From positions 1-43,582 of IMG/VR virus record IMGVR_UViG_3300020421_002096: DNA of 43,582 nt; one strand, 5' to 3'. Position numbers and translations under genes: made by a program. The stretch's first letter is position 1; every line of letters begins with the position of its first letter. The DNA is from a virus. The notes beneath the pieces are model-generated. The model saw only the letters and a list, made by a program, of their open reading frames with translations. It had not been told where the DNA came from and ran no database searches. Positions 10,196-29,048 of the stretch are shown here, one piece after another.

Positions 10196-10205
10196 AGTTT
10201 TTCCT

Positions 10206-10234
10206 TTGACATTAGTTATCTCTTTTATCATAAT
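10206..10234 (+). promoter_or_regulatory. Sigma70-type promoter for the tmRNA
   Basis: TTGACA (10206-10211), 17-base spacer, CATAAT (10229-10234). Transcription should begin near 10241, just before the tmRNA acceptor piece. A late-type box (GCTAAATA, 10249-10256) follows and could add late expression. Confidence 0.6.
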
Positions 10235-10240
10235 AGTAGC

Positions 10241-10563
10241 AGTTTACGGCTAAATATTACTGCAATTGATGACAGCAACGTATGTCACAAGAGCAAGACC
10301 CGGGTGCAATTCCCGGCCACTCCACCAATTCAATATACCCCCGACGGGGTGGAATTAGGATCGATTGGCTTGTTAAGGTTGAACGAGATTGTCCGGATGT
10401 AAGCACGGTTATCGCGAACAAACGTTATAGATGCAAACGATAATGCACTAGCCAACGTTACTTTTGTAGATTTTTCTGCACCAGTAACTGCGGTGAATGA
10501 GGATTTTGCCCTAGCGGCATAATCGCTCGGGGTTGGCAACTTACCTAGCAACAGAAAAGTTGC
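10241..10563 (+). ncRNA. ssrA: Circularly permuted (two-piece) tmRNA
   Basis: tmRNA rescues stalled ribosomes and adds a degradation tag. Here the 3' part comes first: a T-arm (stem 10300-10304/10312-10316, loop 10305-10311), acceptor strand CCACTCC (10317-10323), A and CCA (10324-10327). After an 18-base spacer the 5' part begins GGGGTGG (10346-10352) then AATTAGGATCGA, the usual tmRNA start. The two strands form a 7-bp acceptor stem with G3-U70, the alanine identity pair. The tag frame follows TATAGAT at 10433. After its stop, GTTG/CAAC (10532-10535/10549-10552) and GCAACTT/AAGTTGC (10536-10542/10557-10563) cross to form an H-type pseudoknot. The T-loop has G at position 55 instead of U. 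The outer ends are estimates. Permuted genes are known from Alphaproteobacteria and cyanobacteria. Confidence 0.9.
10433..10522 (+). other. tmRNA tag-peptide reading frame
   Basis: From the GCA resume codon the frame reads 29 residues, beginning ANDNALAN and ending NEDFALAA, then TAA. AND at the start and ALAA at the end match known tags (E. coli ANDENYALAA), and ALAA is the ClpX/ClpA recognition end. At 29 residues it is much longer than most tags. The preceding TATAGAT fits the element that sets the resume codon. Confidence 0.88.
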
Positions 10564-10607
10564 GTCTATTACTACATAGACAATACCTATTAGACTTTTT
10601 CTTTTTT
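10564..10607 (+). terminator. Possible terminator after tmRNA
   Basis: GTCTA (10564) can pair with TAGAC (10591-10595), directly followed by TTTTTCTTTTTT. A competing hairpin GTCTAT/ATAGAC (10564-10569/10576-10581) also exists. The stem is short, so confidence is moderate. Confidence 0.45.
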
Positions 10608-10619
10608 ACGTGTTATAAT
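10591..10619 (+). promoter_or_regulatory. Sigma70-type promoter for the Rieske-like gene
   Basis: TAGACT (10591-10596), 17 bases, TATAAT (10614-10619) with an extended TG. The -35 element overlaps the 3' arm of the inverted repeat that follows the tmRNA. Confidence 0.6.
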
Positions 10620-10646: not shown

Positions 10647-11735
10647 ATGCCACCACGCAATCATAAGAGCTGGAAAGCCCAACCAAAAGTAGAATACATC
10701 AGTAGCGAGTGTTACAACAATCAAAGCATATTTGAACAAGAACAAAAACAAATCTTTAGCAAGGTTTGGATACCTATGTGTCATACTAGTGAAATGTATA
10801 ACATAGGTGACTTTAGAACAACACAGATAGCAGGAGTAAATGTTATTGCATACAACACAGGCGATGGTGTTACAGCATTTTTAAATAACAATCCTAATAT
10901 TAATCAACCTAGCGGAACATTAAGTTGTCCGTATGAAGGAACACAGTTACATTGTGAAGTAAAGCACGGAGGCATGGTATGGGTAACACTTGATCCTAAT
11001 CCTACGCAAAGTGTTGAACAATGGACAGCAGGTGCATTTGATTGTATAGCAGATGCTATTGACACAGAAGAATTAGAAGTATTTCATTATCACAAAGCAA
11101 TCATAGATACAAACTACAAACTATGGCACGATACCAATAGTGAATTCTATCATGACTTCATGCACTACTTTAATCGTGTAAGTGGATTTAATGATGAATA
11201 CTTTGCAAGGAAGAACATTCCTTTTGATAATGGTCATGTGAACGTAAGTTCGTTTACAGTAAACTACGAGGAGTACGAAGGCTTTGAAGATAGAGGAGAA
11301 CTGTCCTTTCCTAATCTACCGCCCAACCAATGGTATATGGTAGACTTGTTTCCAGGCTTTAACTTTAACCTACGTGGTAGTGCATACCGCAGTGATGCAG
11401 TTACTCCATTAGGACCTAACAAAGTTCTTATTGAGTTTAGAGGATATGGACTACGCAAGGACACACCTGAAGAAAGACTTACACGTATCAATCATCACAA
11501 TAGTATATGGGGACCTTTTGGTCGTAACTTGCATGAAGACCTTATAGGTGTAGCTGGACAAGGTACAACCATGCGTGAAGGTACTGAAGCAAGAAACATA
11601 CTACATGGTAGACACGAAAATGGTACTATCCATGATGAAGTAGGTATGCGTCATTACTATAGTGAATGGGGTAAGTTCTTGGAAGTTGATCCTGCCAATC
11701 CATTACAAATGTCATTGGGTTACCCTCGTTGGTAG
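10647..11735 (+). CDS. Rieske-dioxygenase-like alpha subunit lacking a Rieske cluster
   Basis: The 362-residue protein starts at the ATG after AAGGAG (10635-10640). Residues 20-120 follow the Rieske domain of ring-hydroxylating oxygenases (FSKVWIPMCHTSEMYNIGDF, then AFLN, then CPYEG, then VWVTLDP). However, the CxH pair is replaced by N82 and N84, and CPYHG has become C94-PYE97-G, so three of four 2Fe-2S ligands are gone. The catalytic domain keeps its mononuclear iron motif NSEFYHDFMH (E166, H169, H173) and a later HEDLIGVAGQG supplying the Asp ligand region. Without the cluster, electrons cannot arrive by the normal route, so it may be a repurposed iron oxygenase or binding protein. Substrate unknown. 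Confidence 0.75.
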   Translation: MPPRNHKSWKAQPKVEYISSECYNNQSIFEQEQKQIFSKVWIPMCHTSEMYNIGDFRTTQIAGVNVIAYNTGDGVTAFLNNNPNINQPSGTLSCPYEGTQLHCEVKHGGMVWVTLDPNPTQSVEQWTAGAFDCIADAIDTEELEVFHYHKAIIDTNYKLWHDTNSEFYHDFMHYFNRVSGFNDEYFARKNIPFDNGHVNVSSFTVNYEEYEGFEDRGELSFPNLPPNQWYMVDLFPGFNFNLRGSAYRSDAVTPLGPNKVLIEFRGYGLRKDTPEERLTRINHHNSIWGPFGRNLHEDLIGVAGQGTTMREGTEARNILHGRHENGTIHDEVGMRHYYSEWGKFLEVDPANPLQMSLGYPRW

Positions 11736-12318: not shown

Positions 12319-12749
12319 TGTACGAATATAAATGCAAAATCTTAAGAGTAGTAGATGGAGATACAGTAGATATCGATATAGATCTAGGCTTTGGTATATG
12401 GATGGCCAAAGAACGAGTTAGAATGATGGGCATTGATACACCAGAGTCTAGAACAAGAGATAAAGTTGAAAAGAAATTTGGACTCGCATCAAAGGCCAGA
12501 CTCAAAGAGATGTTACCAACAGGATCAATACAACATCTTAAAACACAGATTGATAGAAGCGGAGAAGACAAAAGAGGTAAGTTCGGAAGAGTTCTTGGAG
12601 ACTTTTTAATTGACGGCAAGCCTGCAACTGCTATATTAATTGAAGAAGGATATGCCGTTGCTTATCACGGCCAGAATAAAGACGAAGTTGAGAAAGCTCA
12701 CTTATATAATAGGGAACGACTACTTAAAGAAGGAAAGGTCACCCTATAA
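12318..12749 (+). CDS. Thermonuclease (staphylococcal nuclease-like)
   Basis: Ca2+-dependent phosphodiesterase of the SNase OB fold. In 143 residues the active-site pieces are clear: VVDGDTVDIDI (metal-binding Asp), then R35, D40 and E43 in VRMMGIDTPES, and a second arginine (R91) in GKFGRVLG. These match R35, D40, E43 and R87 of staphylococcal nuclease. There is no signal peptide, so it acts in the cell. Degradation of host DNA for nucleotide recycling, feeding the RNR in this window, is a reasonable inference. Confidence 0.92.
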   Translation: MYEYKCKILRVVDGDTVDIDIDLGFGIWMAKERVRMMGIDTPESRTRDKVEKKFGLASKARLKEMLPTGSIQHLKTQIDRSGEDKRGKFGRVLGDFLIDGKPATAILIEEGYAVAYHGQNKDEVEKAHLYNRERLLKEGKVTL

Positions 12750-13006
12750 TGTTAAAAATACTTGTTGTTGTTTTGATGGCAGGTATGACACCTACGGGCT
12801 CACAAGATTTATATATCTTTACAGATCCAAAATTTGAAACTATTCAAGAATGTCAGAAATGGAGTCAAGGTAACGTACCAGCCATTGTTTTCAACGTTCA
12901 AAGAGAATATGGAAACAGACCAATAAAAGAAATTTATTGTATGCGAGAAGAAATGCTCGAAAAATATCTGGTTAATCCAGACCCACCAAATACCAAAAGT
13001 ATATAA
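12749..13006 (+). CDS. Small exported protein, unknown
   Basis: An 85-residue protein starting in overlap with the thermonuclease stop. The first 18 residues (MLKILVVVLMAGMTPTGS) form a short signal sequence; the mature part has two cysteines (in IQECQKW and IYCMREE) that could form a disulphide in the periplasm. No family recognised. An envelope role during infection or lysis is only a guess. Confidence 0.6.
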   Translation: MLKILVVVLMAGMTPTGSQDLYIFTDPKFETIQECQKWSQGNVPAIVFNVQREYGNRPIKEIYCMREEMLEKYLVNPDPPNTKSI

Positions 13007-19772: not shown

Positions 19773-19840
19773 CTAATATGTTAAAGAATGCCTGATAGGG
19801 TTCTTTGACTTTAACTTGCTTAATAAAGGAGGACAAGACA

Positions 19841-20287
19841 ATGACAAATAAATCACACCTATCAATTTTTAATCAACTAAGACCCGTAACAGTAGGTTTC
19901 GACCCTATCTTTGATAGATTCGAATCAATGTTTAATGATGACTTTTTTGCTCATCAGGGAACTAACTACCCACCATACAACATTATGAAAACTGGTGACT
20001 ACACTTACAACATTGAAATCGCACTAGCTGGTTTCAGTAAGAAAGACATCGACGTAATGTACAATGATGGTGTAATTACTGTTAAGTCAATTCAAGAAGC
20101 TAAGACCGACGACGATCAGTCTGGCGTATTGCACAAAGGTATCAGTAAGCGAATGTTTACTAAATCTTTTAGCATCGCTGATGACGTTGAAGTCAAGGGT
20201 GCTGAGTTGAAAGATGGATTATTGACAATCGCTTTGGAAAGAATTATTCCAGAGTCTAAGAAACCAAGATCTATCGAAATCAAATAA
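19841..20287 (+). CDS. Small heat shock protein Hsp20 (IbpA-like)
   Basis: Holds unfolding proteins for refolding by DnaK. The 148-residue protein has an N-terminal region (FDPIFDRFESMFNDDFF) typical of IbpA, the alpha-crystallin domain with NIEIALAGFSKKDIDVMYND and LKDGLLTIALE, and the C-terminal IEI anchor in RSIEIK. ATG follows GGAGG. Hsp20 genes are common in marine T4-like phages, often linked to virion assembly. Here it is followed directly by dnaK, its usual downstream partner in refolding. Confidence 0.95.
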   Translation: MTNKSHLSIFNQLRPVTVGFDPIFDRFESMFNDDFFAHQGTNYPPYNIMKTGDYTYNIEIALAGFSKKDIDVMYNDGVITVKSIQEAKTDDDQSGVLHKGISKRMFTKSFSIADDVEVKGAELKDGLLTIALERIIPESKKPRSIEIK

Positions 20288-20295
20288 CAAAATGA

Positions 20296-20319
20296 TAGGG
20301 TGGGGGAAACCTCACCCTA
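20296..20319 (+). other. Strong hairpin with GAAA loop between hsp20 and dnaK
   Basis: TAGGGTGGGG-GAAA-CCTCACCCTA forms a 10-bp stem with one G-U pair and a GNRA loop. No T-run follows at once (CTCTTTG), so it could be a processing site, a partial terminator or a message stabiliser setting the Hsp20:DnaK ratio. Confidence 0.65.
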
Positions 20320-20347
20320 CTCTTTGCTTAATAAGGAGGAGAAAACT

Positions 20348-22243
20348 ATGAGCAAAATAATCGGTATTGACTTAGGTACTACCAATTCTTGCGTATCCGT
20401 TATGGAAGGATCTGGAGCCAGAGTTATAGAAAATGCAGAAGGTACAAGAACAACACCTTCAATCGTTTCATTTGGAGATGAAACATTAGTCGGGACACCT
20501 GCTAAAAGACAAGCAGTAACTAATCCTGAAAACACAGTCTTTGCAGTAAAAAGACTTATAGGTAAAAAGTTTAAAGATGCTTCAGTACAAAAAGATCTTA
20601 AGACTTCACCATTTAAAATAACAGAATCTAAAAACGGAGATGCTTGGGTAACGGCGAAAGACAAAGACTATTCGCCTGCACAGATATCTGCTTTTACTTT
20701 ACAGAAGATGAAAAAGACTGCTGAGGAATACTTAGGCAGTGAAGTAAAGAAAGCAGTTATTACAGTACCAGCATACTTTAATGATTCACAAAGACAAGCA
20801 ACTAAAGACGCAGGTAAGATTGCAGGACTTGAAGTTGAACGTATTGTAAACGAGCCAACCGCGGCCGCACTTGCATATGGCTTAGATAAAAAGAAGTCAG
20901 GCACAGTAGCAGTATATGACTTAGGTGGTGGTACGTTTGACGTATCTATCCTAGAGCTAGGCGATGGCGTGTTTGAAGTTAAGTCAACTAATGGTGATAC
21001 ATCATTAGGTGGTGAAGACTTTGACCATACACTTGTTAACTATATCTGTGATGAGTTTAAGAAAGACTCAGGCGTAGATCTAAGAGGCGATAAACTTGCT
21101 ATGCAACGTGTTAAGGAAGCCGCTGAAAAAACTAAGATTGAGTTGTCAAGCACAACACAAACTGATATCAGCTTACCTTTCGTAACCGCAGATGCAAGTG
21201 GACCTAAACACCTTAACGTTAAAATTACCAGAGCAAAGTTTGAAGCTCTTGTAGGAGACTTGATTGAAAGAACACTAGTACCTTGTAAGACTGCTCTTAA
21301 AGATGCAGACATTAGTGCAAGTGATATTGATGAAGTTATCCTTGTAGGTGGTATGACACGTATGCCTAAGGTTGAAGAAACAGTAAAAGGTTTCTTTAAC
21401 AAGGATCCGCACAAAGGAGTTAATCCAGATGAGGTTGTGGCAATAGGTGCCGCGATCCAAGGTGGAGTATTACAAGGTGATGTTAAAGATGTATTGTTAC
21501 TAGACGTTACACCTTTATCACTTGGTATTGAAACACTAGGTGGTGTTGCAACTAAACTGATTGAAAAGAACACAACTATTCCTACAAAGAAAAGTCAAGT
21601 ATTTTCAACTGCTGAAGACAACCAACCAGGAGTTAACATCGTAGTTACCCAAGGTGAAAGAGAACTTGCAAAAGACAATAAAGCATTAGGAAACTTTATG
21701 CTTGACGGTATTGCACCTGCACCTAGAGGTATGCCACAGATTGAAGTAACATTTGATATTGATGCAAATGGTATTGTAAATGTTAGTGCAAAAGACAAAG
21801 GCACAGGCAAAGAACAAAAGATTACAATACAAGCTGACGGTGGTTTGAGTGAAGCTGAAATTGACTCTATGGTCAAAGAAGCTGAGGCTAACAAAGAAGC
21901 TGATAAACAAAAACGTGAAGAAATTGACGTTCGTAACAATGCAGACGGCATGGTAAACAATGTTGAAAAACAAATGTCAGAGCATGGTGACAAACTATCA
22001 GCTGAAGATAAGACTAAGATTGAAGCTAGTCTTACAGCCGTAAAAGATGCACTCAAAGAATCCAATACAGATGATATTAAATCTAAAACGGAAACATTGA
22101 CGCAAGATGCTATGAAACTTGGCGAAGCAATATATAAAGCAACACAAGAAGCAGAAACATCTAAACAAGCAGATTCAGAGCCTGCAAACAATGATAAGGA
22201 AGATATCGTTGATGCAGAATTTGAAGAAGTTGATAAAAAATAA
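20348..22243 (+). CDS. dnaK: Hsp70 chaperone DnaK, full length
   Basis: ATP-driven folding chaperone. The 631-residue protein is complete: [18 protein letters not shown] (phosphate loop 1), [31 protein letters not shown], interdomain linker [16 protein letters not shown], then a substrate-binding domain and lid, ending [12 protein letters not shown] as in bacterial DnaK. All nucleotide-site motifs are intact. I start at the ATG at 20348 after AAGGAGGA; an upstream in-frame start at 20300 lies in the hairpin. No dnaJ or grpE is in this window, so it would use host partners or others outside the window. Codon use and AT content look like the neighbouring phage genes, so acquisition is not recent. 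Confidence 0.98.
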
Positions 22244-22276: not shown

Positions 22277-22585
22277 GTGATAAGTAATATTATGGACGTA
22301 CAAATAGACGAAAAAATTAAGCAAAAGATCTTAGAACCAGGTTTGTTCAAAGTTGTTTTCTTAAATGATGACTTAACCCCTATGGATTTCGTGATTGAGT
22401 GCCTTGTCGGAATATTCAAACATACGGATACAACGGCAAGGGACCTTACTGTAAAGATACACGAAGAAGGGTCAGCAATAGTTGGCGTATACACTTTTGA
22501 GATTGCAGAACAAAAAGGTGTAGAGACTACGCAGTTGGCTCGCTCAAACGGCTTTCCATTACAAGTGAAAGTAGAGAAAGAATGA
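22277..22585 (+). CDS. clpS: ClpS, N-end-rule adaptor for ClpAP
   Basis: Delivers N-degron proteins to ClpAP and blocks ClpA degradation of ssrA-tagged proteins. The 102-residue protein has FKVVFLNDDLTPMDFVIECL (the N-degron-binding ND and hydrophobic pocket), VKIHEEGSAIVGVYTFEIAEQK and the usual C-terminal strand. The start is GTG at 22277 with CAGGAGA upstream; an ATG at 22292 is an alternative. The stop overlaps the heme oxygenase ATG (ATGA). Together with the phage ClpP and tmRNA it suggests redirecting Clp proteolysis. Confidence 0.93.
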   Translation: MISNIMDVQIDEKIKQKILEPGLFKVVFLNDDLTPMDFVIECLVGIFKHTDTTARDLTVKIHEEGSAIVGVYTFEIAEQKGVETTQLARSNGFPLQVKVEKE

Positions 22586-28484: not shown

Positions 28485-29048
28485 ATGAAAAAAGCATACG
28501 AACAATATTCTGTGGACGAGAGGATCGAAGCAACGTTGCACGACAACGATATCCATTATCTGAATGGAGAGCTAGATAATGAGAATATTGCCAAGTGTAT
28601 CAAATGGATCCTTTCAGCTAATCTTGTAAAAAGACCCAAAAGAAGACTTACACTTTACGTGAATACAGTTGGTGGAGATCTGTATGAAACTTTTGGATTG
28701 ATTGATGTTATGAGAGATAGCTACCATACTATTTCAACCGTTGGAGTTGGAGCGGTTATGAGTGCAGGATTCTTGATCTTTGCTAGTGGTAAAACTGGAG
28801 AAAGATATATTGGTAAGAATACAGGTATCATGAACCACCAACATTCAGATACAATGGAATCTAAGATGCACGACATGAAAGCACAGATGAAAGAGAACAA
28901 TAACTGTGAACAAAGATGTATGCAAATTCTAAGAGACGCCACAGGATATAGTCTAGCTGATGTACGTAAGAAATTCAACAACCCATCAGACCAATATTTT
29001 ACAGCCAAACAATTGGTTGAACTTAAAGTAGCAGATCACATTTTATAA
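28485..29048 (+). CDS. clpP: ClpP-type serine protease
   Basis: Proteolytic chamber subunit of Clp. The 187-residue protein has a full catalytic triad: S93 in GAVMSAGF, H118 in GIMNHQH and D169 in PSDQYFTA. The usual LYVNTVGGDLYETF oxyanion-side loop is present. The N-terminus is short, with no obvious propeptide, and the hydrophobic pocket region that binds ClpX/ClpA is not easy to judge. It could be a capsid-maturation type protease; in T4 this role is gp21, which is unrelated. The window also has ClpS and a tmRNA, favouring Clp. Confidence 0.85.
   Translation: MKKAYEQYSVDERIEATLHDNDIHYLNGELDNENIAKCIKWILSANLVKRPKRRLTLYVNTVGGDLYETFGLIDVMRDSYHTISTVGVGAVMSAGFLIFASGKTGERYIGKNTGIMNHQHSDTMESKMHDMKAQMKENNNCEQRCMQILRDATGYSLADVRKKFNNPSDQYFTAKQLVELKVADHIL

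Follow-up and report, generated by a model that had tools for sequence, protein, structure and literature searches.

The locus examined here raises the question of whether a phage genome encodes a working tmRNA in the permuted, two-piece arrangement and, if so, what its unusually long tag contributes. The window, that is, the whole stretch of DNA analyzed (43,582 nt), comes from IMG/VR as a linear viral record of 43.6 kb and has a G+C content of 37%. ARAGORN placed one permuted tmRNA at 10231-10613 and gave its tag as the 29 amino acids ANDNALANVTFVDFSAPVTAVNEDFALAA. The Rfam covariance models alpha_tmRNA (RF01849) and tmRNA_permuted (RF04321) matched at 10202-10567 (102.2 bits, E 6e-27) and 10262-10522 (88.8 bits, E 7e-16), exceeding their gathering scores of 50 and 47 bits, respectively. 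The acceptor piece is encoded upstream of the mRNA-like piece, which is the alphaproteobacterial type of permutation according to the covariance-model match, and phage genes flank the locus on both sides. A first-pass annotation had read 10206-10607 as a circularly permuted tmRNA encoded by the phage and bearing an unusually long tag, and had suggested the Rfam comparison. Both programs bear out the gene itself. A small correction applies to the 3′ end of that span: the RNA ends near 10567 and the remainder is downstream sequence.

All features of the gene lie on the plus strand. The 3′ (acceptor) piece, with the T-arm and an encoded CCA, occupies 10265-10327 as delimited by ARAGORN and Rfam, its 5′ boundary being approximate. 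Reading of the sequence placed the T-arm at 10300-10316, the acceptor 3′ strand CCACTCC at 10317-10323, and ACCA at 10324-10327 (CCA at 10325-10327). An 18-nt intervening segment (10328-10345), presumed to be removed in maturation, separates it from the 5′ (mRNA-like) piece at 10346-10567, whose 3′ boundary is approximate (ARAGORN, Rfam) and which begins with the acceptor 5′ strand GGGGTGG (10346-10352). The acceptor stem, the G3-U70 pair, the T-arm and CCA are thus all present in a tRNA-like domain with alanine identity. The resume site TATAGAT|GCA, with GCA at 10433, opens the internal 29-codon tag frame (10433-10519; stop TAA at 10520-10522), which ends in a degron-like AA and is supported by ARAGORN, by conservation and by the synonymous bias of its insert. 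Comparison with the tag of another phage locus, L251, delimits a phage-specific insert at 10445-10495, corresponding to tag codons 5-21 between ANDN and NEDFALAA. Following the tag, a stem GCAACTT/AAGTTGC (10536-10542/10557-10563, within 10532-10563) was recognized by sequence reading and covariation. A sigma-70-like promoter, TTGACA-17-CATAAT, is located at 10206-10234 and matches the consensus at 11 of 12 positions; TTGACATTAGTTATC is also found upstream of the close relatives, several of which carry TATAAT as the −10 element. The acceptor stem with G3-U70, the 18-nt spacer, the resume site, the 29-codon tag and the post-tag stem had all been correctly placed by the first-pass annotation.

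The paired regions were then compared among the long-tag relatives. The acceptor stem of the window forms seven of seven pairs, the third being G-U. Five different 5′ strands, GGGGTGG, GGGGGCG, GGGCCTG, GGGGTAG and GGGGGTG, were observed, and each is matched exactly by its 3′ strand; all 35 pairs are standard, and only one of 120 re-pairings of the strands is equally good, a count that is independent of any selection rule for perfect pairing. A broader tally over 166 loci was set aside as circular, perfect pairing having been the rule by which those loci were selected. G3-U70 is present in all the long-tag relatives compared. The T-stem likewise varies, CCGGG/CCCGG being replaced in relatives by CTGGG/CCCAG or by CCCGG/CCGGG. 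In the post-tag stem, T-A is replaced by G-C through changes on both sides in L124, L127 and L134, and the stem reads GGTCC/GGACC in L151 and L154. Thus, the acceptor and post-tag stems vary on both strands with pairing kept, and these are the compensatory changes on which the original proposal was to stand or fall. A second stem after the tag, GTTG/CAAC, would give a possible H-type pseudoknot geometry; the post-tag region alone folded no better than its shuffles (z −0.75) in a program that cannot model pseudoknots.

The permuted arrangement on a phage is not new. A 2022 survey of 133 unique phage tmRNA structures classed 53 as two-piece, 50 of these from marine or aquatic phages, and Methylophilales phage Melnitz is the described case (PMC9004378; MZ577097). 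The first-pass suggestion that a two-piece phage tmRNA had yet to be well described is therefore contradicted by published examples. Its observation is real and correctly described, with the permutation overclaimed and the tag underclaimed. For marine-phage tmRNA tags, our literature search yielded only that survey (PMC9004378). As in the window, the phage genome of Melnitz holds a permuted ssrA of the alphaproteobacterial type with both pieces, a resume site and a tag. However, the Melnitz tag has 14 aa (ANDNYVPVDYALAA), its intervening segment has 142 nt, and a glutamine riboswitch has been reported, compared with 29 aa and 18 nt in the window. A blastn search with the window tmRNA came back empty among 50,697 deposited phage records; one with a relative bearing a 22-aa tag was likewise negative, and L174, a related long-tag tmRNA, matched Melnitz weakly over 20% of the L174 length.

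Intervening segments range from 18 to 481 nt in most other phage loci, and some contain open reading frames. In L126, L139, L146, L177 and L225, a segment of 202-214 nt holds a complete small gene of 62-64 aa, encoding MEVIWHILLTVCL...EYICKPVGSVSL, whose stop abuts the 5′ acceptor strand. Melnitz has a 57%-identical homologue immediately upstream of its tmRNA (L299 384-584). Conservation of the predicted protein, down to about 50% identity, supports a genuine gene nested within a tmRNA gene. The segments of L239, L251, L260, L275, L234 and L215 (156-481 nt) carry unrelated ORFs, that of L239 with a weak match to HNH endonucleases.

What looks new is the tag, which exceeds the usual length two- to threefold. 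In alphaproteobacterial tags, ANDN is the side bound by the adaptor SspB and LAA the side bound by ClpX, and the two ends of the window tag match these known ends. The alphaproteobacterial two-piece tmRNA (RF01849, Caulobacter type) shares with the window its gene order, the G3-U70 acceptor stem, the ANDN start and an LAA/VAA-type end. In contrast, the sampled chromosomal tags are mostly 10-15 aa and rarely 21-25 aa (the latter in 5 of 16 called among the 20 alphaproteobacterial genomes with the longest gene spans), and the phage insert occurs in none of them. In the tmRNA database of 2025, with its 79 unique phage tmRNAs, tags of 10 aa are more frequent than those of any other length (PMC11915505).

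When viral contigs were scanned by pattern, most permuted phage tmRNAs proved to carry tags of 8-14 aa, and a separate group stood at 28-30 aa. The window belongs to the cluster ANDNALxNVTFVDFSAPVTAVNEDFALAA; further clusters of 28-30 aa are ANDNALNNVTFVNFGKQKSVVNEDFALAA, ANDNALDNVSFVNFGTQKDVRLNEDFALAA, ANDNALNNVTFVDFGRLNDYVVNEDFALAA, ANDNASNVFSFVDFSNARKYVNEDFALAA and ANDNAFDFTAMSFTGNTVANDSKFALAA, and shorter related phage tags are ANKKALGFADLTVGMSELRLAA (22 aa) and ANDNFAPEAFTSLDMSMDRELIAA (24 aa). The long tags follow one plan, namely ANDN, an aromatic-rich insert and an end of the NEDFALAA type, and the 14-aa phage tag of L251, ANDNFANEDFALAA, consists of both ends without the insert. One pattern for the 29-aa tag matched 29 viral contigs and had no match among the 84,980 species genomes of bacteria and archaea. 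A wider resume-site pattern occurred at six places in the species genomes, four of them in bacterial MAGs (three labelled alphaproteobacterial, one Pseudomonadota). Like the phage tags, the tags of these Micavibrio-like and other alphaproteobacterial MAGs are long, start with ANDNA and share the resume context; however, they reach 24-25 aa by repetition of the ANDN unit (e.g., ANDNAQTVAANDNSSVVAGDKIAA), end differently and are without the VTFVDF core. Long tags as such are therefore not unique to phages, whereas the 28-30-aa length combined with the phage insert was seen only in phages within the genomes and contigs scanned. Two side observations concern tag calling and related families. ARAGORN gave a 10-aa tag, AVNEDFALAA, for L127, L128, L137, L143 and L144 despite their intact 29-codon frames, so automated annotation may misreport long tags. 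Additionally, a separate two-piece family with the 22-aa tag ANKKALGFADLTVGMSELRLAA was found in L013, L037, L085 and L092, with ClpS on two of the four contigs.

The insert shows the signature of a translated sequence. Within three clusters, changes in codons 5-21 were 16 synonymous versus 5 nonsynonymous (P 4.4e-6 against a neutral synonymous share of 0.27, from a simple count over unique variants that is not tree-corrected), indicating that the insert is translated and constrained. The frame is intact in every member at 28, 29 or 30 codons, and all length differences are in frame. ANDN is invariant, partly owing to the search pattern, and the tag ends in LAA or IAA in every long-tag member. 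The aromatic core (VTFVDF/FSFVDF/FDFTAMSF) is kept across clusters, and codons 15-21 drift (pN/pS about 0.95).

Taken together, the locus probably encodes a functional two-piece phage tmRNA with a tag in which the usual degradation signal is retained and a further recognition element or spacer has been acquired. As the first-pass annotation suggested, such an RNA may rescue stalled ribosomes or replace the host tag. Beyond the gene, its conservation and the coding constraint on the insert, which are observed, we infer a course of processing, charging, use and degradation as follows. The alphaproteobacterial-type RNA would be transcribed from the phage's own promoter, the 18-nt spacer would be cut out by host enzymes, and host alanyl-tRNA synthetase would charge the product through G3-U70. 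Host SmpB would then load it on stalled ribosomes, where translation would restart at GCA 10433 and append 29 residues. ANDN at the start and the NEDFALAA end, of the kind recognized by ClpX, are retained in the tag; because both usual ends are kept, tagged fragments would be degraded. The insert of about 15 residues, in which a variable linker accompanies the conserved aromatic core (VTFVDF/FSFVDF), may act as an extra docking element or as a spacer between the adaptor and protease sites. As a result, a phage-tagged protein may be handled differently from a host-tagged one in the infected cell.

The window also encodes a set of protein-quality genes. Hsp20 (19805-20287, Pfam PF00011) adjoins a DnaK (Hsp70) homologue (20300-22243, plus strand; PF00012, E 1e-270). 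A ClpS adaptor homologue (22277-22585, plus strand; PF02617, E 3e-26) and a ClpP-like protease (28485-29048, plus strand; PF00574, E 3e-25) are possible functional partners of the tmRNA; the latter has Ser and His at the catalytic positions when aligned to a solved Clp subunit. All four thus occur together on one phage contig. ClpS diverts ClpAP from ssrA-tagged substrates (PMC9382460). Relatives of ClpS are rare, being found in only 18 of 50,697 deposited phage records. In a comparison of related contigs of differing length, representing few independent lineages and with a hand-picked control set, ClpS was present on 13 of 32 long-tag versus 5 of 36 short-tag contigs (Fisher P 0.013), or 13 of 23 versus 5 of 27 above 20 kb (P 0.006); the ClpP-like protease on 9 of 32 versus 4 of 36 (P 0.07), a weak difference overall (P 0.02-0.07); and DnaK on 7 of 13 versus 0 of 8 of the contigs tested. 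Given the kinship and unequal length of the contigs, which confound the ClpS and ClpP enrichment, and the choice of controls, these associations are leads and not tests.

Elsewhere, the window encodes ribonucleotide reductase, an exonuclease, tail-fibre and baseplate-type proteins, a DNA ligase, several oxygenases, a tryptophan-halogenase-like protein and a heme oxygenase, and ARAGORN found four tRNAs besides the tmRNA. The gene following the tmRNA (10647-11735) is similar to ring-hydroxylating oxygenase alpha subunits; a downstream gene start that encodes MPPRN also occurs in L016 and L110. A small exported-looking protein at 12749-13006 (MLKILVVVLMAGM...) is conserved on many long-tag contigs. 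It is plausible that the phage is T4-like, and it is presumably marine, judging from its nearest known kind. A search for the T4 gp23-type capsid gave nothing over the cut-off in 17 fragmentary long-tag contigs, with one weak match in G021, and a 526-aa window protein had no tblastn match among phages. Placement by the DNA ligase was dropped, its matches being too broad.

Could the long tag instead send fragments mainly to Lon or to a complex with the phage ClpP-like protease, rather than to ClpXP? The ssrA tag of Mesoplasma florum (Mollicutes) is likewise lengthened and provides a precedent for changed protease use, in that the longer tag is read by Lon (PMC9382460). The conserved aromatic-rich core would suit such a switch, as would the occurrence, on these phage genomes, of genes for ClpS and a ClpP-like protease. 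However, the Mesoplasma florum tag belongs to a bacterial chromosome and ends in NYAFA without LAA, whereas every phage member keeps a ClpX-type end, and we regard a switch of protease as unlikely.

Similarly doubtful is a near-neutral elongation, in which the insert is a spare linker and the tmRNA merely supplements that of the host. The 21-25-aa tags that occur, rarely, in alphaproteobacterial genomes are consistent with it, and the free variation of codons 15-21 between clusters suggests that part of the insert may be only linker. Nevertheless, purifying selection within clusters, the conserved aromatic core and a length that stays at 28-30 in diverse contigs argue against neutrality. It is very unlikely that the tag actually added is the ordinary AVNEDFALAA of 10 aa, read from a second resume site with the first 19 codons serving only as RNA spacer. 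ARAGORN reports this tag for the ANDNALTN subgroup, and its length is the commonest one; however, the synonymous bias in codons 5-21 and the frame-keeping length changes argue against it, the TATARAT|GCAAACGATAA context at ANDN fits the alphaproteobacterial consensus, and the would-be second resume codon is V or Y, not A, in other clusters. Finally, although tmRNA genes are common integration sites and the RNA is of alphaproteobacterial type, chance pick-up of a host tmRNA, a prophage scar or contig misassembly is largely refuted already, since both pieces are complete with their own promoter between phage genes, the tag recurs on many viral contigs and is absent from the species genomes, and no integrase was found in 17 long-tag contigs, leaving no sign of a scar at a host tmRNA.

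The reading of a functional phage tmRNA with a retained degradation signal and an added module bears on why phages carry this RNA. More tentatively, and on balance improbably, the constrained aromatic tag module together with phage ClpS, ClpP-like protease and DnaK could constitute a degradation code of marine phages' own, leading to phage-controlled recycling; if so, rescued proteins would be routed into a pathway distinct from that of the host. The co-occurrence of ClpS, ClpP-like protease and DnaK suggests a quality-control set in some marine phages, of which the tmRNA would be one member. A phage-only, conserved and lengthened tag makes the question of why phages carry tmRNA testable.
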